A DNA stretch of 22,430 nt from positions 1 to 22,430 of IMG/VR virus record IMGVR_UViG_3300043464_000667; one strand, given 5' to 3'. The notes beneath the pieces were generated by a model. That model saw nothing but the letters and a program-made list of their open reading frames with translations. It ran no database searches and was not told the origin of the DNA. Below are positions 1 to 11,168 of this stretch, piece by piece; position 1 is the first letter of the stretch, and every line of letters starts with the position of its first letter. Origin of the DNA: a virus. Made by a program: the position numbers and the translations under genes.

Positions 1-119
1 AATGAGTTCTGCGGATAAAACTAAACTAGATGGTATTGCTAGTGGTGCTACTAATGTAACAAACACAAATCAATTAACTAACGGTGCTGGTTTTATTACT
101 AGTTCAGGTACAGCAGCTA
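1..119 (+). repeat. Direct repeat A, copy 1, in the tail fibre gene (copy 2 at 1306-1424)
   Basis: Bases 1-84 match 1306-1389 exactly, and similarity continues to about 119 with a few substitutions. The unit encodes the SSADKTKLDGIASGATNVTN module and the segment after it. Near-identity at the DNA level, not only the protein level, points to recent duplication or gene conversion. Confidence 0.85.
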
Positions 120-3112
120 ATGTAAGTGGAACAGTAGCAATTGCTAACGGTGGTACTGGGCAGACAACTCGTCAAGCTGCCATGGACGCACTAGCTGGGT
201 CAGTTACTGCGGGTCAGTACTTGCGTGGTGATGGTACCGATGTGGTTATGTCGGCTATACAAGCAGGCGACGTACCAACCCTAAATCAGAACACTACAGG
301 TAGTGCTGCTACATTAACAACAGCTCGCACAATTGCACTAACCGGTGATGTGGTTTATACCAGCGACTCATTTAATGGGTCAGCAAACGTAACAGGTACT
401 GCAACTCTTGCTAACAGCGGTGCAACTGCAGGTACATATGGCAGTGCTACAAATATACCCCAAATTGCAGTAGATGCAAAAGGTCGAATTACTTCTGTAA
501 GCGATGTAGCCGTTAGTATTCCTTCTGGCTCTCTTACATTCACAGGAGACGTAACTGGTACAGGCTCTACTGGTTCTAGTACCGCACTTACACTTGCCGC
601 AGCAGGTACTGCTGGAACTTACACAAAAGTTACAACAGACAGCAAAGGCCGTGTTACGTCAGGCACAACATTAGTTGCAACAGACATTCCCAACTTAGAT
701 GCTGCAAAAATTACCAGTGGTGTTATTGATGCTGCCAGATTACCCAGCTATGTAGACGACGTTGTAGAAGCTGCAAACTTAGCGGCGTTTCCAGCAACTG
801 GCGAAACTGGTAAAATTTATGTTGCACTAGACACCAACAAAGTTTATCGTTGGAGTGGTACTGTATATGTTTATATTACCAGTGGTGCGGTAGATTCAGT
901 AGCGGGTAAAACAGGTGTTGTAACACTTGTTGCTGGTGATGTTGGTTTAGGTAACGTAGAAAACAAAAGCTCAACAACTATTCGCGGCGAGATTACCAGT
1001 GGTAATGTTACCGCTGCACTTGGATTTACACCTTATAACGCAACAAATCCGTCAGGATATATTACCAGTGCTGGAACAGCCGCCAACGTTTCAGGAACTG
1101 TGGCTGTAGCCAATGGTGGTACTGGAGCAACTACAGCTGCAGCTGCACTAACTAGTTTAGGTGCTTATCCAGCCTCCAATCCAAGTGGTTACACAACCAA
1201 TACTGGTACAGTAACTGGCGTAACTGGCACAGCACCTATTGTTAGCTCAGGTGGTACAGCCCCTGCTATTTCCATTAGTGCAGCTACTACTAGTGCAGCA
1301 GGCTCAATGAGTTCTGCGGATAAAACTAAACTAGATGGTATTGCTAGTGGTGCTACTAATGTAACAAACACAAATCAATTAACTAACGGAGCTGGTTTTA
1401 TTACTAGTTCAGGTACTGCAGCTAACGTCTCAGGAACTGTTGCCGTCGCCAATGGCGGTACTGGTTCCACAACTGCAGCAGCTGCCCTAACTAGTTTAGG
1501 TGCTTATCCAGCCTCTAATCCAAGTGGTTATACAACCAATACTGGTACAGTTACCTCAGTAGCCGGTACAGGTACTGTAAGCGGTTTAACTTTAACAGGA
1601 ACTGTTACAGGCAGTGGAAATCTTACACTAGGTGGTACATTATCACTTACCAGTGGAGATGTTACTTCAGCACTAGGCTTTACGCCTTATAACGCAACTA
1701 ACCCAAGTGGTTATATTACCAGTTCAGGTACTGCAGCTAATGTAAGTGGAACTGTGGCAATTGCTAATGGTGGTACAGGTCAAACAACTCGTCAAGCAGC
1801 TATGGATGCCTTGGCCGGTGCAGTTACTAGTGGCCAATACTTACGTGGTGACGGTACAGACGTAGTAATGTCAGCTATTCAAGCCGCTGATGTTCCAACC
1901 CTAAATCAAAACACAACAGGTACTGCGGCTAATGTAACAGGTGTAGTTGCAGTTGCCAACGGCGGTACAGGCACAGCAACACCAGGTTTAGTTGCTGGTA
2001 CAAACATCACTGTGAGTGGCTCTTGGCCAAATCAAACAGTTAACGCTGCTGGCGGATTAACGGGGTTTACTGCAGCTGAATCCACTACCTTGCCCAACGA
2101 CGTAACTTATGTTAATTCCCTTACGGTTGCCGCCGCCTCAACCAATGCTGACGTAGCACTAGTAGCTAAAGGTACAGGGGCAACACTTGCACAAGTTCCT
2201 ACTGGCACTGTTGTTGGGGGAAATAAACGCGGGCAATATGCAACCGATTTTCAAAAAGCAAGAAATGCGGCTACGCAAGTAGCTTCTGGTGGTTGGTCTT
2301 CTATTCTTGGTGGGCAAAACAACGCGGCTACTGCTAATTTCAGTTTTGTTGGTGGTGGGCAAAACAATACAGCAGGCAATCAAGGTGCTGCTGTTGTTGG
2401 CGGCGCAAACAACTCAGCAAGCGGAAACAGCTCTGTTGTTGTTGGCGGCCAAAGTAACACAGCAAGCAGTTTTTATGCCGTAGTTGTTGGCAGCGATAAC
2501 AGCGGAGCAACTGGAAGCAATTCGGCTGTTATTGGTGGATCAACCAATACGGCAAGTGGTTCAGCCAGTGCTGTTTTAGGCAGCTCAAACAGCACTGCAA
2601 ACGGTCAAAACTCTGCTGTTGTTGGTGGTCGATATGGAACGACTAGGTCTATTATTGGTAATACCGTTTTACCAGCAAGTAGTAATCCGATTGCAACAAC
2701 TGCTGGTGTTTCTCAATCAGCTACGCTATTACTTGGTCGTCAAACCACAGACGCAACAGCAACTGTACTAACCAGCAACACATCAGCTGCAAGCACAACC
2801 AACCAAGTAGTCCTTCCAGACAACTCGGCATATTATGTTAAAGGCAGCATCATTGCTACCATAACGGGCGGCGGCAACACAAAGTCTTGGGACTTTGTTG
2901 CAACCATCAAGCGTGGGGCTAGTGCTGCATCAACAGCAATTGTTGGCACAGTAGCTTTAAACGTGCAAGCTGCAGATGCAGGCGCAGCTACATGGTTGGC
3001 TGCAATCACCGCCGATACCACAAACGGTGGCTTGGCCGTTACAGTAACTGGGCAGGCAGGCACAACAATCCGCTGGGTTGCAAAACTTGAAACAACTGAG
3101 GTAACCTACTAA
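1..3112 (+). CDS. Large repeat-built tail fibre protein, 5' end outside window
   Basis: Probable tail fibre, part of the host-recognition apparatus. At least 1036 residues are visible and the frame is open at the window edge. The ATG at base 2 is not a credible start: the first ~119 bases recur inside the gene at 1306-1424, where the same Met lies mid-protein. The first ~700 residues are tandem fibre modules with recurring segments such as TNQLTNGAGFITSSGTAAN, VANGGTG, LGFTPYNATNPSGYI and an AGTYTKVTTDSKGRVT-type segment known from phage fibres. About residues 760-880 switch to short repeats (GGQNN, VVGGANNSASG, VIGGSTNTASG) like the left-handed beta-roll head repeats of YadA-type trimeric adhesins. 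A different, non-repetitive domain of roughly 130 residues closes the protein. The stop overlaps the next start (TAATG). The fold and trimeric state are inferred; the receptor is unknown. Confidence 0.85.
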   Translation, partial: MSSADKTKLDGIASGATNVTNTNQLTNGAGFITSSGTAANVSGTVAIANGGTGQTTRQAAMDALAGSVTAGQYLRGDGTDVVMSAIQAGDVPTLNQNTTGSAATLTTARTIALTGDVVYTSDSFNGSANVTGTATLANSGATAGTYGSATNIPQIAVDAKGRITSVSDVAVSIPSGSLTFTGDVTGTGSTGSSTALTLAAAGTAGTYTKVTTDSKGRVTSGTTLVATDIPNLDAAKITSGVIDAARLPSYVDDVVEAANLAAFPATGETGKIYVALDTNKVYRWSGTVYVYITSGAVDSVAGKTGVVTLVAGDVGLGNVENKSSTTIRGEITSGNVTAALGFTPYNATNPSGYITSAGTAANVSGTVAVANGGTGATTAAAALTSLGAYPASNPSGYTTNTGTVTGVTGTAPIVSSGGTAPAISISAATTSAAGSMSSADKTKLDGIASGATNVTNTNQLTNGAGFITSSGTAANVSGTVAVANGGTGSTTAAAALTSLGAYPASNPSGYTTNTGTVTSVAGTGTVSGLTLTGTVTGSGNLTLGGTLSLTSGDVTSALGFTPYNATNPSGYITSSGTAANVSGTVAIANGGTGQTTRQAAMDALAGAVTSGQYLRGDGTDVVMSAIQAADVPTLNQNTTGTAANVTGVVAVANGGTGTATPGLVAGTNITVSGSWPNQTVNAAGGLTGFTAAESTTLPNDVTYVNSLTVAAASTNADVALVAKGTGATLAQVPTGTVVGGNKRGQYATDFQKARNAATQVASGGWSSILGGQNNAATANFSFVGGGQNNTAGNQGAAVVGGANNSASGNSSVVVGGQSNTASSFYAVVVGSDNSGATGSNSAVIGGSTNTASGSASAVLGSSNSTANGQNSAVVGGRYGTTRSIIGNTVLPASSNPIATTAGVSQSATLLLGRQTTDATATVLTSNTSAASTTNQVVLPDNSAYYVKGSIIATITGGGNTKSWDFVATIKRGASAASTAIVGTVALNVQAADAGAATWLAAITADTTNGGLAVTVTGQAGTTIRWVAKLETTEVTY
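91..303 (+). repeat. Direct repeat B, copy 1, in the tail fibre gene (copy 2 at 1711-1923)
   Basis: The unit encodes the ANGGTGQTTRQAAMDALAG and GQYLRGDGTDVVMSAIQA segments through VPTLNQNTTG. It recurs 1620 bases downstream with almost the same protein sequence. DNA differences are mainly at third codon positions, so this pair looks older than repeat A. Confidence 0.85.
1148..1212 (+). repeat. Direct repeat C, copy 1, in the tail fibre gene (copy 2 at 1487-1551)
   Basis: A 65-base unit encoding LTSLGAYPASNPSGYTTNTG and the residues just after it. It differs from 1487-1551 at only two bases that I can see, both synonymous C/T changes. The offset of 339 bases keeps frame. Confidence 0.8.
1306..1424 (+). 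repeat. Direct repeat A, copy 2, in the tail fibre gene
   Basis: This is the second copy of the module at 1-119, offset by 1305 bases (a multiple of 3, so the frame is kept). The first mismatch is T85 versus A1390. Because this copy sits mid-gene with an in-frame Met, it shows that the Met at base 2 is internal and that the gene extends upstream of the window. Confidence 0.85.
1487..1551 (+). repeat. Direct repeat C, copy 2, in the tail fibre gene
   Basis: Partner of 1148-1212, 339 bases downstream and in frame. With repeats A and B it makes the region from 1 to about 1925 a mosaic of interchangeable fibre modules. Confidence 0.8.
1711..1923 (+). repeat. Direct repeat B, copy 2, in the tail fibre gene
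   Basis: In-frame partner of 91-303. The encoded proteins differ at only a few residues (for example Phe/Tyr before ITSSG, and GSVTAG versus GAVTSG). The separation of 1620 bases is a multiple of 3, so recombination between copies would delete or duplicate whole modules without breaking the frame. Confidence 0.85.
2288..2640 (+). repeat. YadA-head-like short repeats inside the tail fibre gene
   Basis: Degenerate repeats of about 14-17 codons, each with a VVGG- or VLGG-type strand followed by an N/S-rich turn (GGQNNAAT, GGQNNTAG, GGANNSASG, GGQSNTASS, GGSTNTASG). This matches the register of the left-handed parallel beta-roll of YadA/Hia head domains. That fold assignment rests on the pattern alone. 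Confidence 0.6.
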
Positions 3113-3957
3113 TGGCTATACAATTTGACAATTCAAACACGGGCGTAGTTACGCTTAGACCAGCTACCAGCGGAACAGTTACATTAACATTGCCCTCAGC
3201 GGACGGTACAAACGGTCAAGCACTAACAACAAACGGTTCTGGGCAACTGGCTTTTACAACCGTTGGTGGAGCAGAAGCAGATACACTAGCTACAGTAACT
3301 GGTCGAGGTGCTACTACTGCAACTGCGGTTGTTATAACCAACAGCACAGCATCTACTACAACCTCAACAGGTGCGCTAACTGTAGCTGGTGGTGTTGGTG
3401 TTGCAGGAGCTTTACAAATTGGCGGGAATTTAACTAGTAACAATTCTTTATTTACTATTGGAGTTAGTCCCACAGGAGCCTTTCAAAGTGGCAAGAGCAT
3501 TAAGCTTGAAGCAGGCAGTACTCTTGCATCAGACTATAATGGTGGTGATGTAACAATTAAAGGTGGAAACGGTGCAGAGTATACTAGTGCAGGTGCCGTT
3601 GTTATTACAGGAGGCAACGCCGATACTGGCAATGGTGGAGGATTATACCTAACTGCAGGCAATTGCGCCGGAGCCACAGGTGCAAGTATTACTATTAATC
3701 CTGCTGCTGGCTTTATAGGTAATGGTGGCTCTATTGTTTTACAAGCAGGTGCCAATGCAGGCTTGGGGTTTGCAAATGTACAAATTACACGAACAACTGC
3801 ATCAACTTCAACAACAACAGGTGCACTAACTGTAGCAGGCGGTCTGGGCGTTGCTGGTGCAATTTATGCAGGCAACATATTTTCTAATGGTGTTCAACTA
3901 GCTCCCGCTAGCGCAGGACAAAGTTTTATCACAGCAATGGTTTTTGGAGGAATATAA
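3112..3957 (+). CDS. Tail fibre-like or other virion structural protein
   Basis: 281 residues, starting in a TAATG overlap with the fibre gene. No signal peptide or membrane helix is seen. The composition is Gly/Thr/Ala/Ser-rich and beta-prone, like the preceding fibre. Two copies of a TASTTTSTGALTVAGGVGVAGA-type motif (about residues 79-100 and 227-249) bracket a middle part with GGDVTIKGGNG and GGLYLTAGN strands. From memory, the TTTGALTVAGGVGVAG motif is common in structural and fibre proteins of T4-like cyanophages. The likely role is an accessory fibre or tip component co-expressed with the large fibre. No enzymatic motif is seen. Confidence 0.7.
   Translation: MAIQFDNSNTGVVTLRPATSGTVTLTLPSADGTNGQALTTNGSGQLAFTTVGGAEADTLATVTGRGATTATAVVITNSTASTTTSTGALTVAGGVGVAGALQIGGNLTSNNSLFTIGVSPTGAFQSGKSIKLEAGSTLASDYNGGDVTIKGGNGAEYTSAGAVVITGGNADTGNGGGLYLTAGNCAGATGASITINPAAGFIGNGGSIVLQAGANAGLGFANVQITRTTASTSTTTGALTVAGGLGVAGAIYAGNIFSNGVQLAPASAGQSFITAMVFGGI
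3946..3951 (+). promoter_or_regulatory. Shine-Dalgarno GGAGGA supporting a GTG start at 3958
   Basis: GGAGGA lies inside the end of the preceding gene and ends 6 bases before GTG 3958, which directly follows the TAA stop (3955-3957). A near-perfect ribosome site at this distance makes the GTG the preferred start. Confidence 0.8.
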
Positions 3958-4362
3958 GTGGCAAACCCAAATTTAATTAGTACAACCGCAATTCGTGGAA
4001 ATACAGCATACGTTATACCGGCTACTACATCAGCCGGACAAACTAACTGGACACACAACGGTACAACAGCACTTACAGGATTAACTCCAGCAGTAAATAG
4101 TGTAAATAAAGTAAATAGCATTGTAGCTACAAATGTGACCGGCAATAACGTTAACTGTACTGTTTCAGTATCAAACAATGCAACCTGGAGTTCTGGAACA
4201 CCTTTTCATATTGCATTCAATTTAACAGTTCCTCCTAATGCTTCTATTATTATAACAGATAAAACTAATGCTCTTTATATAACTGAAAACCAGTCCATTG
4301 GAGTTCAAACAAGTGTTTCAAGTGCATTGAATTTTGTTGCAAGTTTTGAGGTAATAACATGA
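3958..4362 (+). CDS. Small probable virion protein (beta-rich, unknown)
   Basis: 134 residues with a GTG start placed directly after the upstream stop and backed by a GGAGGA site. The protein opens MANPNLISTTAIRGNTAYVI and is rich in Asn, Thr and Val, with a segment (VPPNASIIITDK) that looks like edge strands of a beta sandwich. It has no signal peptide, membrane helix or cysteine pattern suggesting secretion (one Cys only). From memory, similar small MANPN-type proteins occur as structural proteins in cyanophages. Its stop overlaps the next start by four bases (ATGA), so it is probably translationally coupled to the Gly-rich adhesin gene. It may be a virion decoration or fibre-associated protein; the exact role is unknown. 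Confidence 0.65.
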   Translation: MANPNLISTTAIRGNTAYVIPATTSAGQTNWTHNGTTALTGLTPAVNSVNKVNSIVATNVTGNNVNCTVSVSNNATWSSGTPFHIAFNLTVPPNASIIITDKTNALYITENQSIGVQTSVSSALNFVASFEVIT

Positions 4363-5351
4363 GTTTAAGATGGCCAGGCGGAAGAATTTCATCTATAGCA
4401 CCCGTAACAACTGCAGTTGCAGCAATAGGAATATGGACAAGTAATACTCAAGCACAGGCTAAAGCCGCTGGTTTTTGGCCAGGCAGTGCTACCCCAACAG
4501 TTGAATATCTTGTAGTTGGTGGCGGTGGTGGTGGTGGATGTAACCACGCTGGCGGTGGTGGAGGTGGTGGTATGAGAACTGCAACTAATTTTGCAGTTAC
4601 TACAGGTACCGCAATTACAGTAACAGTTGGTGCAAGTGGTGCAGGTGCAACCTCAGTTTTTGCCAAAGGTGTTAATGGTACTGCTACTACATTTTCAACT
4701 ATAACTGCTGCTGGTGGCGGTGGCGGTGGTAATCGTCACGACGGAAACTTAAGTGGCGGTGCTGCTGGTTTAGCAGGTGGTTCTGGTGGCGGTGGCGGTG
4801 GCGACGATTCAACTGGTGGTGTTGGTTTAACTGGTGGAGCTGGAAATACTCCATTTACATCACCAGATCAAGGTAAAGCAGGTGGTAACGGGTGTACAGG
4901 TGGCACACTGTCCGCTGGCGGTGGTGGTGGTGGTGGCGGTGTGTCCGGGGTACTAGGAGTTAACGCAAATGCCACAACAGGAAAGGCCGGTAATGGCGGT
5001 AATGGAACGCTTTCTTCTATTACTGGCACATCAATACAATATGCTGGCGGTGGCGGTGGCGGGGCATACCTAGACGCAAATAGAATTGGTATTGGTGGTC
5101 TTGGCGGTGGCGGTAACGGATCAAAAGACACTAGTCCTGCTGCCACGCAAGGCACAGATGGTTTAGGTGGCGGTGGCGGTGGCGGTGGTGCAAATGCTGC
5201 TGCTGGTGGCCGCGGCGGTAGTGGAATTTGTGTTATTAGATATCCAGACACATTTCCAGCTGCAGTAGCAACAACGGGTAGTCCAACAGTTACTGTGTCT
5301 GGTGGATTCAGAGTCTACCAGTGGACTTCTTCAGGAACAATTACATTTTAA
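4359..5351 (+). CDS. Glycine-rich putative receptor-binding adhesin
   Basis: 330 residues. A short N-terminal part (about 1-50) is followed by a long region with at least seven poly-Gly runs of 5-8 residues, separated by loops such as NRHDGNLSGG and GVSGVLGVNANATTGKAG. The C-terminus is ordered and hydrophobic (ICVIRYPDTF and FRVYQWTSSGTITF). This matches the general plan of phage Gly-rich domain proteins. It also recalls tip adhesins such as gp38 of Salmonella phage S16, where poly-Gly strands pack as polyglycine-II helices and loops contact the receptor; that comparison is inferred. A conserved VEYLVVGGGGGGG entry segment is typical of the Gly-rich family. It is the fourth gene of the fibre cluster and overlaps the upstream stop by ATGA. 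Confidence 0.75.
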   Translation: MSLRWPGGRISSIAPVTTAVAAIGIWTSNTQAQAKAAGFWPGSATPTVEYLVVGGGGGGGCNHAGGGGGGGMRTATNFAVTTGTAITVTVGASGAGATSVFAKGVNGTATTFSTITAAGGGGGGNRHDGNLSGGAAGLAGGSGGGGGGDDSTGGVGLTGGAGNTPFTSPDQGKAGGNGCTGGTLSAGGGGGGGGVSGVLGVNANATTGKAGNGGNGTLSSITGTSIQYAGGGGGGAYLDANRIGIGGLGGGGNGSKDTSPAATQGTDGLGGGGGGGGANAAAGGRGGSGICVIRYPDTFPAAVATTGSPTVTVSGGFRVYQWTSSGTITF

Positions 5352-5363
5352 AAGGAGTAGTTA

Positions 5364-5693
5364 ATGTCTTTATTTGCTAAAATTGAAAACGGCATGGTTA
5401 CTAGTGTAATAGTTGCTTCTCAAGATGTTATTGATTCTGGTGCGTTTGGTAATGGGTGGCTTGAAACTTGGGCTGAGACTGTTAATAATCCAAGAAAAAA
5501 TTACGCAGGTATTGGGTATACTTACAACGACACTTTAGATGCATTTATTCCACTACAACCATTTCCAAGTTGGACTTTAGATGAGAGTTGTCAGTGGATT
5601 GCTCCAGTACCCTTTCCAGCAAATGCTTCTGTGGATGAGTATACTTGGGATGAGTCTAATACTTCGTGGAAACGTATAACTACACCAAATTAA
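5364..5693 (+). CDS. Small phage protein of tail-fibre neighbourhoods (unknown)
   Basis: 109 residues, acidic and rich in Trp, Pro and Tyr, with no signal peptide or membrane segment. It contains RKNYAGIGYTYNDTLDAFIP and PFPSWTLDESCQWIAPVPFP. From memory, these segments recur in a small protein often found near tail fibre genes in cyanophages and other aquatic phages. Translation is well supported by AAAGGAG at 5351-5357, six bases before the ATG. The beginning (FAKIENGMVTSVIVAS) suggests a small beta-sheet unit. It may be a virion or fibre-assembly factor; no experimental function comes to mind. Confidence 0.65.
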   Translation: MSLFAKIENGMVTSVIVASQDVIDSGAFGNGWLETWAETVNNPRKNYAGIGYTYNDTLDAFIPLQPFPSWTLDESCQWIAPVPFPANASVDEYTWDESNTSWKRITTPN

Positions 5694-5738: not shown

Positions 5739-6149
5739 ATGTGGATACTACAATTTTTACCAAACTGGATATTTTATTTACTGCTATTTGCAGCAGTAAT
5801 AGTATTTTTACTAACTAAATTCGTTGCTATATTGCCTCAGACAAAATTAATACAAACAGCAAGTATTGCAGTAGTTATTATTAGTGTTTACATGATAGGG
5901 GCTATTTCAAATAATGATGCTTGGTTATCTCGCGTCAAAGACCTAGAGGTCAAAGTAGCGGAAGCAGAAGCTAAAAGTGCTACGGTTAATACAGAAATAG
6001 TCACTAAAGTGCTTACCAAAACTCAGGTAGTTCGTGAGCGCGGTGAAACGGTAGTAAAATACATTGATCGTGAAACTATTAAAATTGACGAACGCTGTAC
6101 AATTCCACCTGAGTTTGTAGAAGCACACAACAAGGCGGCTACCAAATGA
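5739..6149 (+). CDS. Putative inner-membrane spanin (Rz-like)
   Basis: 136 residues. Two hydrophobic helices (about 8-28 and 37-57) precede a charged alpha-helical region (about 64-100, DLEVKVAEAEAKSATVNTE) predicted to form a coiled coil, then a short tail with one Cys. In spanin pairs the inner subunit spans the periplasm and fuses inner and outer membranes with its lipoprotein partner at the end of lysis. The next gene is such a lipoprotein and overlaps by ATGA, and an endolysin follows, which strongly supports the role. Two helices instead of the usual one is a departure from lambda Rz. No good Shine-Dalgarno is visible upstream; the gap 5694-5738 holds no gene. A holin-like role for the helices is an alternative. 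Confidence 0.65.
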   Translation: MWILQFLPNWIFYLLLFAAVIVFLLTKFVAILPQTKLIQTASIAVVIISVYMIGAISNNDAWLSRVKDLEVKVAEAEAKSATVNTEIVTKVLTKTQVVRERGETVVKYIDRETIKIDERCTIPPEFVEAHNKAATK

Positions 6150-6412
6150 AAATTATATTACTAAGTTTAGCACTATTACTAACTGGTTGCTCCACAACTG
6201 TGCCAGTCACGCAAAAGTGGCCGGAGGCCCCAGGCTTGCAAAGCATGCAACCTTGTGGTGAACTCAAAAAGCTGGGCACCGACCCTAAATTGTCGGATGT
6301 TGCCCGTACTGTTACACTAAACTATACTGAGTACTATTCATGTGTAGTTAAACTGGAAGCTTGGCAAGAATGGTATGCCAAGCAACAAATTATTCACCAA
6401 GGATTAAAATGA
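6146..6412 (+). CDS. Putative outer-membrane spanin lipoprotein (Rz1-like)
   Basis: 88 residues with a lipoprotein signal: Lys2, a hydrophobic run, then the lipobox LLTGC with the lipidated Cys at position 15. The mature protein (about 74 residues) begins CSTTVPVTQKWPEAP, with prolines near the anchor as in many outer spanins, and continues into a helix rich in Tyr, Trp and Lys. It would sit in the inner leaflet of the outer membrane and contact the inner spanin. It overlaps the inner spanin by four bases and the endolysin by four bases (ATGA at both ends). From memory, outer spanins of aquatic phages share a PEAPG...CGELKKL...LSDVA pattern. Confidence 0.75.
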   Translation: MKIILLSLALLLTGCSTTVPVTQKWPEAPGLQSMQPCGELKKLGTDPKLSDVARTVTLNYTEYYSCVVKLEAWQEWYAKQQIIHQGLK

Positions 6413-7036: not shown

Positions 7037-7573
7037 TTGCTACAACGCATAATTTTAGCACTTGTGCTTGTGTGTGCAACCAGCACACAAGCACAAGATC
7101 TCAATAACACAGTAAACACAAACAGTACGGTTAATACTCGTAGTGATAGTACTGTACGCTCGCCTCCAGCATCGGCTATTAGCCCAACAATCAACACAGC
7201 TAATTCAGACTTGTGTACTATTGGTGTAGCCGGTGCTGTGCAAACACAAATCTTGGGTATTAGTGCAGGAGCTACTGTAGTAGACCTAAACTGTGAACGG
7301 CTCAAGTTATCAAAAACACTGTTTGACATGGGCATGAAAGTTGCGGCTGTAAGCACACTGTGTCAAGACCGCAGAGTGTTTGATGCAATGATGATGGCAG
7401 GTACTCCTTGTCCGTATGACGGAACTATTGGAACCGAAGCTCGTGCAGCTTGGAAAGCCAACGAAGCTCAGCAGCCCAGCAATAATCCCAAAAGCAAAGG
7501 TCTAAACAATGACACTAAAACACTGCTTGGTAGTGGTGGCTTACTTGTTCTGCTGCTCCTACTCCTACTCTGA
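7037..7573 (+). CDS. Secreted protein of unknown function with hydrophobic C-tail
   Basis: 178 residues from a TTG start. Residues 1-19 (MLQRIILALVLVCATSTQA) form a signal peptide with likely cleavage after QA. A low-complexity Asn/Thr/Ser stretch follows (about 22-45, NNTVNTNSTVNTRSDSTV), then a conserved-looking domain with SPTINTANSDLCTIG, LNCERLKLSKTLFDMGMKVAAV and MMMAGTPCPYDG. Four Cys in the mature part (in DLC, LNC, LCQ and PCP) could pair in the periplasm. The last ~14 residues are nearly all Leu, Val and Gly, as in a C-terminal membrane anchor. From memory, proteins with the MMMAGTPCPYDG segment occur in several aquatic phages without a function. First of five secreted-protein genes; its end overlaps the next gene by 65 bases. 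Confidence 0.75.
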   Translation: MLQRIILALVLVCATSTQAQDLNNTVNTNSTVNTRSDSTVRSPPASAISPTINTANSDLCTIGVAGAVQTQILGISAGATVVDLNCERLKLSKTLFDMGMKVAAVSTLCQDRRVFDAMMMAGTPCPYDGTIGTEARAAWKANEAQQPSNNPKSKGLNNDTKTLLGSGGLLVLLLLLLL

Positions 7574-8366
7574 AACAATAAATGCTCGTAGCCCAAACGC
7601 AGCACAGCAGGGTTTGAATTGGGTAATGAAAGAGGTACTGCCGCAGTATACAGGTTTAACTGTTGGTGGTGTTAACTATACCTACACAGCAGTTAAAAAC
7701 CCCAAAGACCCGCTGGCGGTAACGGTTGAGAATTTGAACGCAACTGGCAGTGGGTATGTATTTCGTAGTCGTGATGACTGGTCAGGACTGCCTGGCAATA
7801 CAATCACACGCACAGTACCTACTGATAATATTCCCATTAACCTGTGGGGTCCTGGACAGATCAAGCTAGAAGGCGTAGGCTCAGTAACAGATCCCAGTGT
7901 GCGATATATTTACCGCTACGATACTTGTAAATTTACTCCTGTAACAGACACAAGTTGCGCAAACTATAAGCCACCGCAACCAACGCTTAGTTTACCAGAA
8001 GCGGAAATGCCAGTTGAGTGGAAGAATACCAGCACAACACAAACTCCAGAAGAGCAGGAACGTGATCGCAAGTTCTTGCAAGAAAATGCAGGCTTTCGAG
8101 CTGCAACCAAACCACCTAGTCGTGGCACTAACGCACTAATAAACGCACAAGCAGTCTCACTATCGGCTGCACTAGATGCGCTTAATAACCCTGCAGGATT
8201 TGCACTGTATAGTGCTAAAATACCTGGTGGAACATACGCAGAAACTGTGGTATTAAAAGACCGTGTTCTGCTAGATAGCCGTAATAGCAGAAGATTTAAT
8301 CAAAGCCAACAACAATTGCATGAAGCTATGGTTAATCTTCAATTTAATCTAATCAAGGAACCTTAA
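7509..8366 (+). CDS. Secreted protein of unknown function
   Basis: 285 residues. Residues 1-21 (MTLKHCLVVVAYLFCCSYSYS) form a signal peptide, so the start inside the previous gene is credible; AAAGG at about 7497-7501 gives a ribosome site. The mature protein has an N-terminal beta-rich part (VGGVNYTYTAVKNPKDPLAV, GYVFRSRDDWSGLPGNTI, IPINLWGPGQIKLEG), a Cys pair (YDTCKF and TSCANY), and a helical C-terminal half with TPEEQERDRKFLQENAGFRA and NSRRFNQSQQQLHEAM. From memory, the DDWSGLPGNTI segment is conserved in marine phage proteins of unknown function. No enzymatic motif is recognised. The large overlap with the upstream gene suggests coupled translation. Confidence 0.75.
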   Translation: MTLKHCLVVVAYLFCCSYSYSETINARSPNAAQQGLNWVMKEVLPQYTGLTVGGVNYTYTAVKNPKDPLAVTVENLNATGSGYVFRSRDDWSGLPGNTITRTVPTDNIPINLWGPGQIKLEGVGSVTDPSVRYIYRYDTCKFTPVTDTSCANYKPPQPTLSLPEAEMPVEWKNTSTTQTPEEQERDRKFLQENAGFRAATKPPSRGTNALINAQAVSLSAALDALNNPAGFALYSAKIPGGTYAETVVLKDRVLLDSRNSRRFNQSQQQLHEAMVNLQFNLIKEP

Positions 8367-8863
8367 TGATTAAACAAATACTTTCGACGTTGCTACTAGC
8401 CTCAACACTAGCGGCACAAAGTGCAGAGATACCTATTCGTGGCAGTGTTACTTCCAAATGTGTTATTAACACAGACACTCCAGGGGTATACGGAAACCCA
8501 GTACCTAACTTACTAAGCACCGCCAGAGCAGACGGTGGTATGGCTCCAGTGGTTCGCTACGACGTAGTACAAGGCGGATTTTACAAGGCCAGTATTACTA
8601 CTCCTAGTGCATTTACCGCTAGTCCAGTTCTACCTGATGTAGTAAACTGGACTGGAACTGTCGACGTAACGCGAGTAACTGATGCAGCTATGTCAGCCTA
8701 TACAAGCAATAAAATTGTATATAACAATACCACAGAAATTAACTTAACAGTGCCTGGCAGTGTTTGGTTTTCTGCTACCTCAAAAGCAAACTATGGATTT
8801 GAGAAATCTTTTCCAGCAGGCGAATATCGCGCAGTAGTAATTGCGGAGTGTATTGCTAAGTAA
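8366..8863 (+). CDS. Secreted pilin-like or spore-coat-U-like protein (putative)
   Basis: 165 residues starting in a TAATG-type overlap, with AAGGAA at 8355-8360 as ribosome site. Residues 1-19 form a signal peptide ending AQSA. The mature protein begins EIPIRGSVTSKCVINTDTPG and ends FPAGEYRAVVIAECIAK. The N-terminal G-x-V-x-x-x-C and terminal G-x-Y-x-x-x-V patterns, with one Cys near each end, recall fimbrial subunits and the spore coat U/Csu pilin family, where this Cys pair closes an Ig-like sheet. That is inference from pattern and size. It lies just before a gene whose product looks like a small Ig-like chaperone domain, which fits a pilin/chaperone pairing, but no usher is present. Confidence 0.6.
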   Translation: MIKQILSTLLLASTLAAQSAEIPIRGSVTSKCVINTDTPGVYGNPVPNLLSTARADGGMAPVVRYDVVQGGFYKASITTPSAFTASPVLPDVVNWTGTVDVTRVTDAAMSAYTSNKIVYNNTTEINLTVPGSVWFSATSKANYGFEKSFPAGEYRAVVIAECIAK

Positions 8864-8866
8864 CTT

Positions 8867-9253
8867 ATGCAACTCTTTTGTAAATTACTAGTAGCCTTGT
8901 TTTTTACAATTGGTGGGTTCGTTAGTGCCCACCAATTTACTCCTACTTACCCAAAGTTTGAAACTTCTTTTGTTCAAGGAGTGCAACAAGCAAAAATGGA
9001 GTTGTTTAATACCCGGCGTGAAGTGTGGTTTTACGAAATAGATGTGTTTGACAAAGACTGGAATAAACTGCCATTTGCTTCGTCTCAAGGTAAAATAGTA
9101 CGTATAGAGTACTTAGAGACTAAAACTATAGATGTGTATGTAAAAACCCAGGATGTAAGCAAAGTAACATATATTTGTACTGAATCACGGTTACTAAAAC
9201 AAGATGTCAAAGGCACATCCGTGTCCTCTAGGATATGCTCAAAAGTTAAATAA
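8867..9253 (+). CDS. Secreted small Ig-like protein, chaperone-domain-like (putative)
   Basis: 128 residues. Residues 1-21 form a signal peptide ending VSA before HQFTPTYPKF. The mature ~107 residues alternate strands: KMELFNTRREVWFYEIDVFDKDW, LPFASSQGKIVRIEYLETKTIDVYV, VTYICTESRLL and SSRICSKVK. The Asn-containing strand followed by a hydrophobic strand resembles the N-terminal domain of periplasmic pilus chaperones (PapD/FimC type), but the usual second domain is missing. Two Cys (in YIC and RIC) could form a disulphide. The gene starts three bases after the upstream stop without an obvious ribosome site, so translation is probably coupled. An unrelated secreted beta-sandwich is the main alternative. 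Confidence 0.55.
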   Translation: MQLFCKLLVALFFTIGGFVSAHQFTPTYPKFETSFVQGVQQAKMELFNTRREVWFYEIDVFDKDWNKLPFASSQGKIVRIEYLETKTIDVYVKTQDVSKVTYICTESRLLKQDVKGTSVSSRICSKVK

Positions 9254-9681
9254 TGACTAAATTACAACAATGTAGTGTTGCCCTGTTATTTTTTTGCAGT
9301 ATTGCCGGGGCTAATACTACAGGTTCTTTGAACCTTTCCCTGCCTGGGTTACCTGGCAGTTTTCAATCAGATAGTTTTAGGGCTAACGGACTTGACTGCT
9401 CTATGGCTATTGGCTCTAGCACTAACGTTGAGTTTGGTGTTATAGGCCTTGTTAATCGTGATAATCAGCAGGTTACTACTGCTCCAGTAAACCCAAACGA
9501 CCCTCGAAAAAATGTTGGTGTATATGGTAGAATTATTATACCTATTGGAGCACCAAAAGATCGGCTAGACTGTAACGAGCTTTATCAGCTAGAACTAAGA
9601 AAAAAGCGCATGGAAATTCAAAAACTTGAAGGTGAGCTTAATAATCTGCGAAACCTAAAATTTGAGAATGCGCCTAAATAA
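9253..9681 (+). CDS. Secreted protein with C-terminal coiled coil, unknown function
   Basis: 142 residues starting in a TAATG overlap. Residues 1-20 (MTKLQQCSVALLFFCSIAGA) form a signal peptide. The mature N-terminal part is Gly/Ser/Asn-rich (GSLNLSLPGLPGSFQSDSF), then GLDCSMAIGSSTNVEFGVIG and NVGVYGRIIIPIG suggest beta strands. The last ~45 residues (DRLDCNELYQLELRKKRMEI, then QKLEGELNNLRNL) form a strongly predicted coiled coil with a Cys at its base. From memory, the RIIIPIG...LDCNELYQLEL pattern occurs in uncharacterised proteins of marine phages. It is the last of the five secreted-protein genes. It may be a periplasmic oligomer or an envelope-stress or exclusion factor; this is not determinable from sequence. 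Confidence 0.65.
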   Translation: MTKLQQCSVALLFFCSIAGANTTGSLNLSLPGLPGSFQSDSFRANGLDCSMAIGSSTNVEFGVIGLVNRDNQQVTTAPVNPNDPRKNVGVYGRIIIPIGAPKDRLDCNELYQLELRKKRMEIQKLEGELNNLRNLKFENAPK

Positions 9682-9690
9682 GGAGCTGTT

Positions 9691-10269
9691 ATGACACAAG
9701 ATTTAAACAAAAAAGTAGAAGAACTAGAGGCTGCTGCAAAGCAGTATGCAAGCAAAGATACTGTTATTTCAATAGGCGGTTATGAGTTTACGCCTGCTAA
9801 ACTAATGGTGGCTTTTACACTTGTAAGTTCACTACTAGGTGGTCTTTATGGTGCTTTTGAAGTCTACAAGGATTATCAAAGCATGAAAAAGAAAATTGCT
9901 AACTATGAAGCTCCGGACTTATCGGAGTTTGACAAGCGACTAGCTGTTATTGAGGAAAATAGTTCAAAAACCAGCGACTATACTCGTGACATTAAAAATG
10001 ATTTAAAATCAGATATTCGCAGAAACGAATCAGTAACTGAGCAAGTTGAACGTAGTGTTAAGTCAGCTCAACGTGAAACTGAACTAGAAATGCGACAAGC
10101 ACGCAAAGATGTTCGTGAAGATCTAGACAAAGCCAGATCAGAAGTAAACGCTATCCGCAAAGAAATGGCCGATGCTCGTCGTGAGATTACACGAGAAGTT
10201 GAACAGCTTAAAAAAGAAGTTGACAACAGAATCCAAAAAGCTATTGATAACCCACTAGCAGGAAAATAA
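9691..10269 (+). CDS. Single-pass membrane protein with long charged coiled coil
   Basis: 192 residues, with AAGGAG ending five bases before the ATG. A short helical N-terminus (1-22), a small Gly-containing segment (ISIGGYEFTPAK), then one transmembrane helix (about 37-57, KLMVAFTLVSSLLGGLYGAF). From about residue 60 onward the protein is almost entirely charged heptad-like helix (KSDIRRNESVTEQVERSVKS, then REVEQLKKEVDNRIQKA). By the positive-inside rule either orientation is possible. Such proteins could act in membrane tethering, lysis or virion assembly. No homologous family of known function is recognised. It follows the secreted cassette and precedes other membrane proteins, so it belongs to the envelope-directed part of the late strand. 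Confidence 0.65.
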   Translation: MTQDLNKKVEELEAAAKQYASKDTVISIGGYEFTPAKLMVAFTLVSSLLGGLYGAFEVYKDYQSMKKKIANYEAPDLSEFDKRLAVIEENSSKTSDYTRDIKNDLKSDIRRNESVTEQVERSVKSAQRETELEMRQARKDVREDLDKARSEVNAIRKEMADARREITREVEQLKKEVDNRIQKAIDNPLAGK

Positions 10270-10976: not shown

Positions 10977-11168
10977 ATGAAACTACTAATTGCAACCGCA
11001 CTAACATTTAGCCTATTGGCGCCACCACTGGCCTTTGCTGCCGAAACAAAAAAGGTATGCGTTGACCAAACAGATCCTAAAACAAAGCAAACCAAGCAAG
11101 TTTGCAAAGAAGTAAAAGTGCACCAAAAGCTTGAAGGCACCAAAGTTCCTGAAAAGTCCGGCAAGTAA
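10977..11168 (+). CDS. Tiny secreted Lys-rich protein, unknown function
   Basis: 63 residues, starting one base after the upstream TAA within TAAATG. Residues 1-21 (MKLLIATALTFSLLAPPLAF, then A) form a signal peptide; the mature ~42 residues are Lys/Thr/Val-rich with two Cys (KKVCVDQTDPKTKQTKQVCKEV), a likely disulphide, and end KLEGTKVPEKSGK. From memory, small proteins with AETKKVCVD...KKLEGTKVP occur in many aquatic phages and are unannotated. It is the last gene before the phoH promoter. A periplasmic, possibly nucleic-acid- or envelope-binding peptide is possible given the basic character, but there is no direct evidence. Confidence 0.65.
   Translation: MKLLIATALTFSLLAPPLAFAAETKKVCVDQTDPKTKQTKQVCKEVKVHQKLEGTKVPEKSGK

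Follow-up and report, generated by a model that had tools for sequence, protein, structure and literature searches.

A conserved six-gene module of exported and membrane proteins in aquatic phages, with a candidate subunit-chaperone pair

Gene content and conservation

The window analysed here is the whole of an IMG/VR record, a stretch of DNA of 22,430 bases. Tail-fibre-like genes occupy positions 1-5693, followed by a spanin-like overlapping pair (5739-6412, called by architecture only) and by an endolysin (phrog_181, E 4e-75), which lies directly before the module considered in this work. The first-pass annotation had described five consecutive, tightly spaced genes at 7037-9681, each with a signal peptide. 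All five open reading frames are present, with overlaps of 65, 1 and 1 bases and one 3-base gap, and a sixth gene, referred to as cc, belongs to the same unit. The features are as follows.

o1, 7037..7573, plus strand: TTG start, 178 aa; signal peptide, Asn/Thr/Ser-rich stretch, SPPPSA-like motif, conserved four-Cys domain and C-terminal poly-Leu hydrophobic tail
o1/o2 two-frame overlap, 7509..7573, plus strand: encodes the probable o1 tail anchor in one frame and the o2 signal peptide in the other
o2, 7509..8366, plus strand: 285 aa; signal peptide, predicted periplasmic, two conserved Cys, variable linker and conserved C-terminal part
o3, 8366..8863, plus strand: 165 aa; predicted exported Ig-like, probably pilin-like subunit with invariant C32 and C162
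o4, 8867..9253, plus strand: 128 aa; predicted exported; a stand-alone domain of the PapD N-terminal type, the last two strands of which hold the invariant C104 and C124
o5, 9253..9681, plus strand: 142 aa; predicted exported, two conserved Cys, beta-rich middle (..GVYGRIIIPIG..RLDCNELY..) and C-terminal coiled-coil-like helix
cc, 9691..10269, plus strand: N-terminal transmembrane segment, long coiled coil and C-terminal NPLA motif

Export features are kept across the orthologues, with signal-like N-termini in 73/80, 82/85, 85/85, 87/89 and 86/87 sequences of o1 to o5, respectively, as called by the analyst's own heuristic rather than by SignalP. The mature proteins carry even and fixed numbers of cysteines (4, 2, 2, 2, 2 and 0 for o1, o2, o3, o4, o5 and cc), a pattern which fits oxidised exported proteins; four are found in 77/80 o1 sequences, and two in 82/85 of o2, 85/85 of o3, 89/89 of o4 and 86/87 of o5. 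A lipobox pattern occurs in only 0-3 of the 80-89 orthologues per module gene. The earlier description of a run of periplasmic proteins holds as far as export is concerned, but not for o1 as a free periplasmic protein, since a C-terminal hydrophobic tail, present in 80/80 orthologues, probably anchors it in the inner membrane.

Within the window, the PHROG matches of o1-o5 are with phage families without assigned function only. No Pfam or NCBIfam identity was obtained for o1-o5: NCBIfam gave nothing near cut-off, the matches of cc being coiled-coil noise, and no Pfam pilin or chaperone family was matched by the window's own module proteins. An Rfam search returned no match. The T4-type late promoter TATAAATA has one match, which equals the chance expectation and does not lie at the module, and the counts of sigma-70-like and terminator-like sequences are near chance. 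Further downstream, positions 10977-11168 encode a Lys-rich exported protein of 63 aa, which has two mature Cys and weakly matches the T4 spackle family (E 0.057).

Related loci were gathered by IMG/VR searches with o3, o4, o2 and o5 and by a GTDB contig search with o3. The full set o1-o2-o3-o4-o5-cc is found, in order, in 108 of the 133 scanned loci, which include contigs fetched twice and hold 84 distinct o3 proteins. Cultured reference phages apart, a gene is missing in 17 loci, and in 17/17 the loss falls at a contig end. The order is never broken, the sole insertions being located between o5 and cc; o2 is present in every locus that is not truncated by a contig end, and cc is in order in all full loci. 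Values of dN/dS range from 0.01 to 0.23 across all six genes. Given this range and an order kept in every related contig not cut by its end, the clustering is not a matter of chance. Among the loci examined first, about half had no detectable relatives of the window's lysis and PhoH neighbours nearby, so the module does not merely travel with the genes around it. Distance correlations among the six proteins (0.57-0.76) speak for shared history only. Co-occurrence in other phages had been set beforehand as a test of the five-gene run, and the kept order in related contigs bears it out, as does the confirmed recurrence in aquatic phages. The run of five is therefore real, but the unit is one of six rather than five, with cc always included, and the original observation is confirmed and extended to a conserved six-gene exported and membrane unit. 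In the literature searched, the module is not described.

Predicted folds of o3 and o4

The protein o4 had been likened to a single PapD-type Ig domain, and structure prediction confirms this. Its AlphaFold model consists of one domain (pLDDT 91), for which the best PDB matches in Foldseek are chaperone-usher chaperones (probability 1.0, E 1.5e-4 onward). In VIA the top 19 rows are all chaperone-usher chaperones, with Z from 10.3 to 11.1; the PapD-like domains of MSP/VAP proteins score lower (Z up to 9.8), and a CsxA domain reaches 10.3. The model strongly suggests that o4 shares the N-terminal-domain fold of the PapD, FimC and Caf1M chaperones. The L shape formed by two Ig domains in chaperones is not found in o4, with its 128 aa and one modelled domain. 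In the model, the last two strands hold the invariant C104 and C124; in FGL chaperones a disulfide is found between the F1 and G1 strands (PMC4133393).

As for o3, the G-x-V-x3-C start and G-x-Y end pointed out earlier correspond to G26-x-V28-x3-C32 and G152-x-Y154, which are invariant or nearly so across 73 o3 sequences. The AlphaFold model is an Ig-like sandwich (pLDDT 90). Its top Foldseek matches are mostly pilins (CfaB, FimF, the PapG pilin domain, FimG and CsuA/B), with E of about 3e-3 and TM of about 0.4, while VIA gives Z below 8, with MSCRAMM Ig domains first and other Ig-like adhesins leading over pilins; a BFVD fold search with o3 gave nothing above noise. Judging from the model, o3 can safely be called Ig-like and only probably pilin-like. 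In pilins a disulfide joins strands A and B (PMC5625045). This bond is without counterpart in o3, the only mature cysteines of which are C32 in the first strand and C162 in the last.

Direct sequence homology of the window's o3 and o4 to pilins and chaperones was considered and rejected, as PDB profile searches gave chance matches and phage-only profiles of both proteins reached hhalign probabilities below 3% against spore-coat-U pilins and PapD_N. With Vibrio-phage and bacterial relatives added, o4 matches PapD_N with probabilities of 76-88% (E 2.3e-5 to 3.2e-6), its comparison with pilins giving under 1%. Bacterial o3 relatives match spore-coat-U pilins with a probability of 79% (E 1.6e-5, 137 columns), which falls to 24% when phage and bacterial sequences are pooled, and the cross-comparisons, of o4 with pilins and of o3 with chaperones, stay below 10%. 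As hhalign E-values are for single comparisons, the likeness of o3 to spore-coat-U pilins and of o4 to PapD_N, both via relatives, is moderate at the sequence level. The pilin-like call for o3 has gained moderate fold support and, through these relatives, profile-profile support, and the folds predicted for the two proteins are not of the unrelated kind that the first-pass annotation had named as evidence against itself.

It could be argued that o3 and o4, as Ig-like proteins of the periplasm, are unrelated, have reached pilin-like and PapD-like folds by convergence and act separately, for instance as inhibitors of host periplasmic enzymes. Ig-like folds are common, the structural scores of o3 are middling and window-type profiles show no sequence link; against this, o3 and o4 adjoin in every intact locus, phage or bacterial, they match two halves of one pathway, and the relatives strengthen each match independently. 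Convergence of this kind seems improbable.

Separable parts and their distribution

Relatives of o1 occur in Pelagibacter and Roseobacter phages and in more than 550 IMG/VR stretches. The loci obtained in a search with o1 only come mostly from SAR11-type phages. In them o1 is accompanied by a large o2-like protein and by a short coiled-coil membrane protein with NPL at its end, and o3-o5 are absent; an open reading frame ending in NPL follows o1 in 44/44 of these loci with enough sequence. The C-terminal NPL/NPLA motif closes the membrane coiled-coil protein paired with o1 (positions 9691-10269 in the window, and loci L045-L052 and L168-L247). Two Roseobacter phages, CRP-207 and CRP-810, have the gene for this protein annotated as lysozyme, for which the sequence gives no support. 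The overlap between o1 and o2 spans 56-86 nt in 80/80 loci, and 65 nt in 50 of the 80; the 65-nt overlap in the window (7509-7573) is a candidate for translational coupling or co-targeting.

Relatives of o5 are found in more than 570 IMG/VR stretches, and also in Vibrio phages and plasmids. Vibrio phage Ceto carries homologues of o3, o4 and o5 in tandem, as genes CETO_145-147, and its o3, used as query, has matches in 179 isolated Vibrio phages. By HMM, the trio was detected in 5/5 Vibrio phages examined, which fall into three size classes (about 60, 85 and 110-128 kb) and carry it without o1, o2 or cc. In all five it directly follows a large phrog_10818 gene, which probably encodes a tail fibre. 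Since SAR11-type phages have o1-o2-NPL but no trio, and Vibrio phages have o3-o5 but not o1, o2 or cc, the module is made of two separable parts, o1-o2-cc and o3-o4-o5, which the window joins by nesting the trio between o2 and cc.

Among bacteria, a plasmid search with o5 revealed trios in both Mesorhizobium and Vibrio, one plasmid of V. campbellii showing only o4-o5, and a genome search revealed one on an alphaproteobacterial contig. A Vibrio nigripulchritudo plasmid (L248:7712-8500) encodes, between its o3 and o4 homologues, a 263-aa exported protein with an o3-like end, which may be a two-domain, adhesin-like subunit, and a Mesorhizobium plasmid (L249:9344-9826) has a second o3-like gene after o5. 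One bacterial MAG (G001, the source of L133) holds four contigs with o5 homologues, at least one of them with the full phage module, and is probably contaminated with several phages. EAL or GGDEF genes lie close to three of the bacterial trio loci. Adhesion systems often have c-di-GMP genes close by, and these neighbours fit an adhesion or surface role there. The trio may represent a hitherto undescribed, usher-less chaperone-subunit system for surface or periplasmic assembly in bacteria, probably under c-di-GMP control, in which o5 would replace the usher as exporter or anchor and which phages would share and have built into an envelope module of their own to seal or re-coat infected cells; this broader reading is considered rather unlikely.

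Possible roles of the module

The earlier statement that no usher is present is confirmed for the window and 29 related virus records. The usher family (PF00577) was found in 0/30 of these module-bearing records, with a positive E. coli control, and the outer-membrane channel CsgG likewise in 0/30, a positive control having been used; as several records exceed 100 kb while none is rated complete and they may be fragments, the absence is strong, not absolute. A canonical chaperone-usher operon was rejected because none of the 30 records has an usher, and identity with curli (T8SS) because none has CsgG, together with the lack of a curli Pfam match in the window's module. Curli operons are known in pelagiphages (PMC7029224, PMC9599517, PMC9004378), and with neither usher nor CsgG in the 30 records they constitute a different cassette.

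The first-pass annotation had offered envelope remodelling, a block to superinfection, interference with host pili or a periplasmic structure as candidate roles, and the analysis does not separate these decisively. The preferred reading, put forward tentatively, is that o3 and o4 belong to an usher-less subunit-chaperone cassette which, together with a phage envelope module (o1-o2-cc), remodels the envelope of the infected cell, most likely against further adsorption or entry. It draws on the invariant order, the even cysteine counts, the fold and profile matches of o4, the Foldseek matches of o3 to pilins, the spore-coat-U match of bacterial o3 relatives, the stand-alone trio, the EAL or GGDEF neighbours of three bacterial loci and the separability of the two parts; the missing Pfam matches, the phage-only hhalign probabilities, the low VIA scores of o3 and the placement of its cysteines count against it. 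According to this proposal, o4 would fold or cap o3, probably by donating a beta strand to it; o5, with its beta stretches and coiled coil, would probably receive or anchor o3. The phage-specific set of o1, o2 and cc would tether this complex to the inner membrane and span the periplasm. Presumably late in infection, the cell would carry an assembly containing o3, either periplasmic or located at the outer membrane, most likely in order to shut out further adsorption or entry.

In phages, the trio or module lies near tail-fibre genes and also near endolysins. The former fits a role in adsorption or superinfection control, which is ranked slightly above lysis control, fitted by the latter. As a lysis accessory, the module would comprise an inner-membrane cc and a tail-anchored o1 with periplasmic partners, timing lysis or breaking the outer membrane beside the spanin-like pair. 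Its position directly after the endolysin in the window agrees with this, as do the recurrence of endolysins beside both full-module and o1-only loci, the trios of Ceto and pVp-1 a few genes before a holin and an M15 endolysin, and the layout of cc, N-in and C-out as in i-spanins or T-type holins. Nonetheless, the window already has an endolysin and a spanin-like pair, lipoboxes are lacking on the module proteins, many module loci adjoin no recognised lysis gene, and lysis has no need of a chaperone-subunit pair. A lysis role appears rather unlikely.

Another alternative is export of o3 across the outer membrane, o5 serving as anchor or pore, to give a surface fibre by which infected cells stick together or to surfaces. 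The c-di-GMP enzymes near bacterial trios favour such a fibre, and the same idea has been proposed for another phage-borne secretion cassette, with 'sibling capture' suggested for the curli genes of pelagiphages (PMC7029224). However, neither an usher nor another known outer-membrane channel was found in the module-bearing records, each of the 30 has exactly one o3 copy, and no clumping was seen by the authors who cultured a curli-bearing phage (PMC9004378). A surface fibre is considered quite doubtful.

If the envelope-remodelling proposal is true, a chaperone-subunit machine without an usher is carried by many aquatic phages and by cultured Vibrio phages, and in the latter the function of this large, so far unexplained set of exported genes in aquatic phages can be tested directly. 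It would represent a means, apparently undescribed, by which a virus rebuilds the envelope of its host, now testable in cultured phages, and points to an apparently undescribed small bacterial cassette which may assemble Ig-type subunits without a classical usher.

Comparison with known systems

Superinfection and lysis-control proteins such as T5 Llp, T4 Sp and Imm, and T4 RI resemble the module in being small exported or membrane proteins whose genes lie close to those for receptor binding or lysis. They are single genes without a chaperone-subunit pair, unlike the module, and o1-o5 match no family with an assigned function. The curli (type VIII secretion) operons of pelagiphages and of methylophage Melnitz resemble the module as multi-gene exported cassettes in aquatic phages with an unclear purpose, but consist of other genes, the module having neither CsgG nor a curli Pfam match. 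Likeness is also seen with the chaperones of chaperone-usher systems (PapD, FimC, Caf1M, SafB and CsuC), the N-terminal-domain fold of which is matched by o4 at Z 10-11, although o4 has one domain instead of two, no Pfam PapD_N match and no accompanying usher. Its two invariant cysteines in the last two strands recall the F1-G1 disulfide of FGL chaperones (PMC4133393), whereas its F1-G1 loop of about 13 residues is like that of FGS chaperones. With regard to the spore-coat-U/Csu-type pilins, o3 differs in having its second cysteine in the last strand rather than in strand B, in its single copy and in phage profiles without sequence homology; its best Foldseek matches are among them (CsuA/B, CfaB and FimF), and likeness is seen too in the G-x-V-x3-C start and G-x-Y end, in a gene directly before a chaperone-like gene, and in bacterial relatives which match SCPU profiles at 79%.
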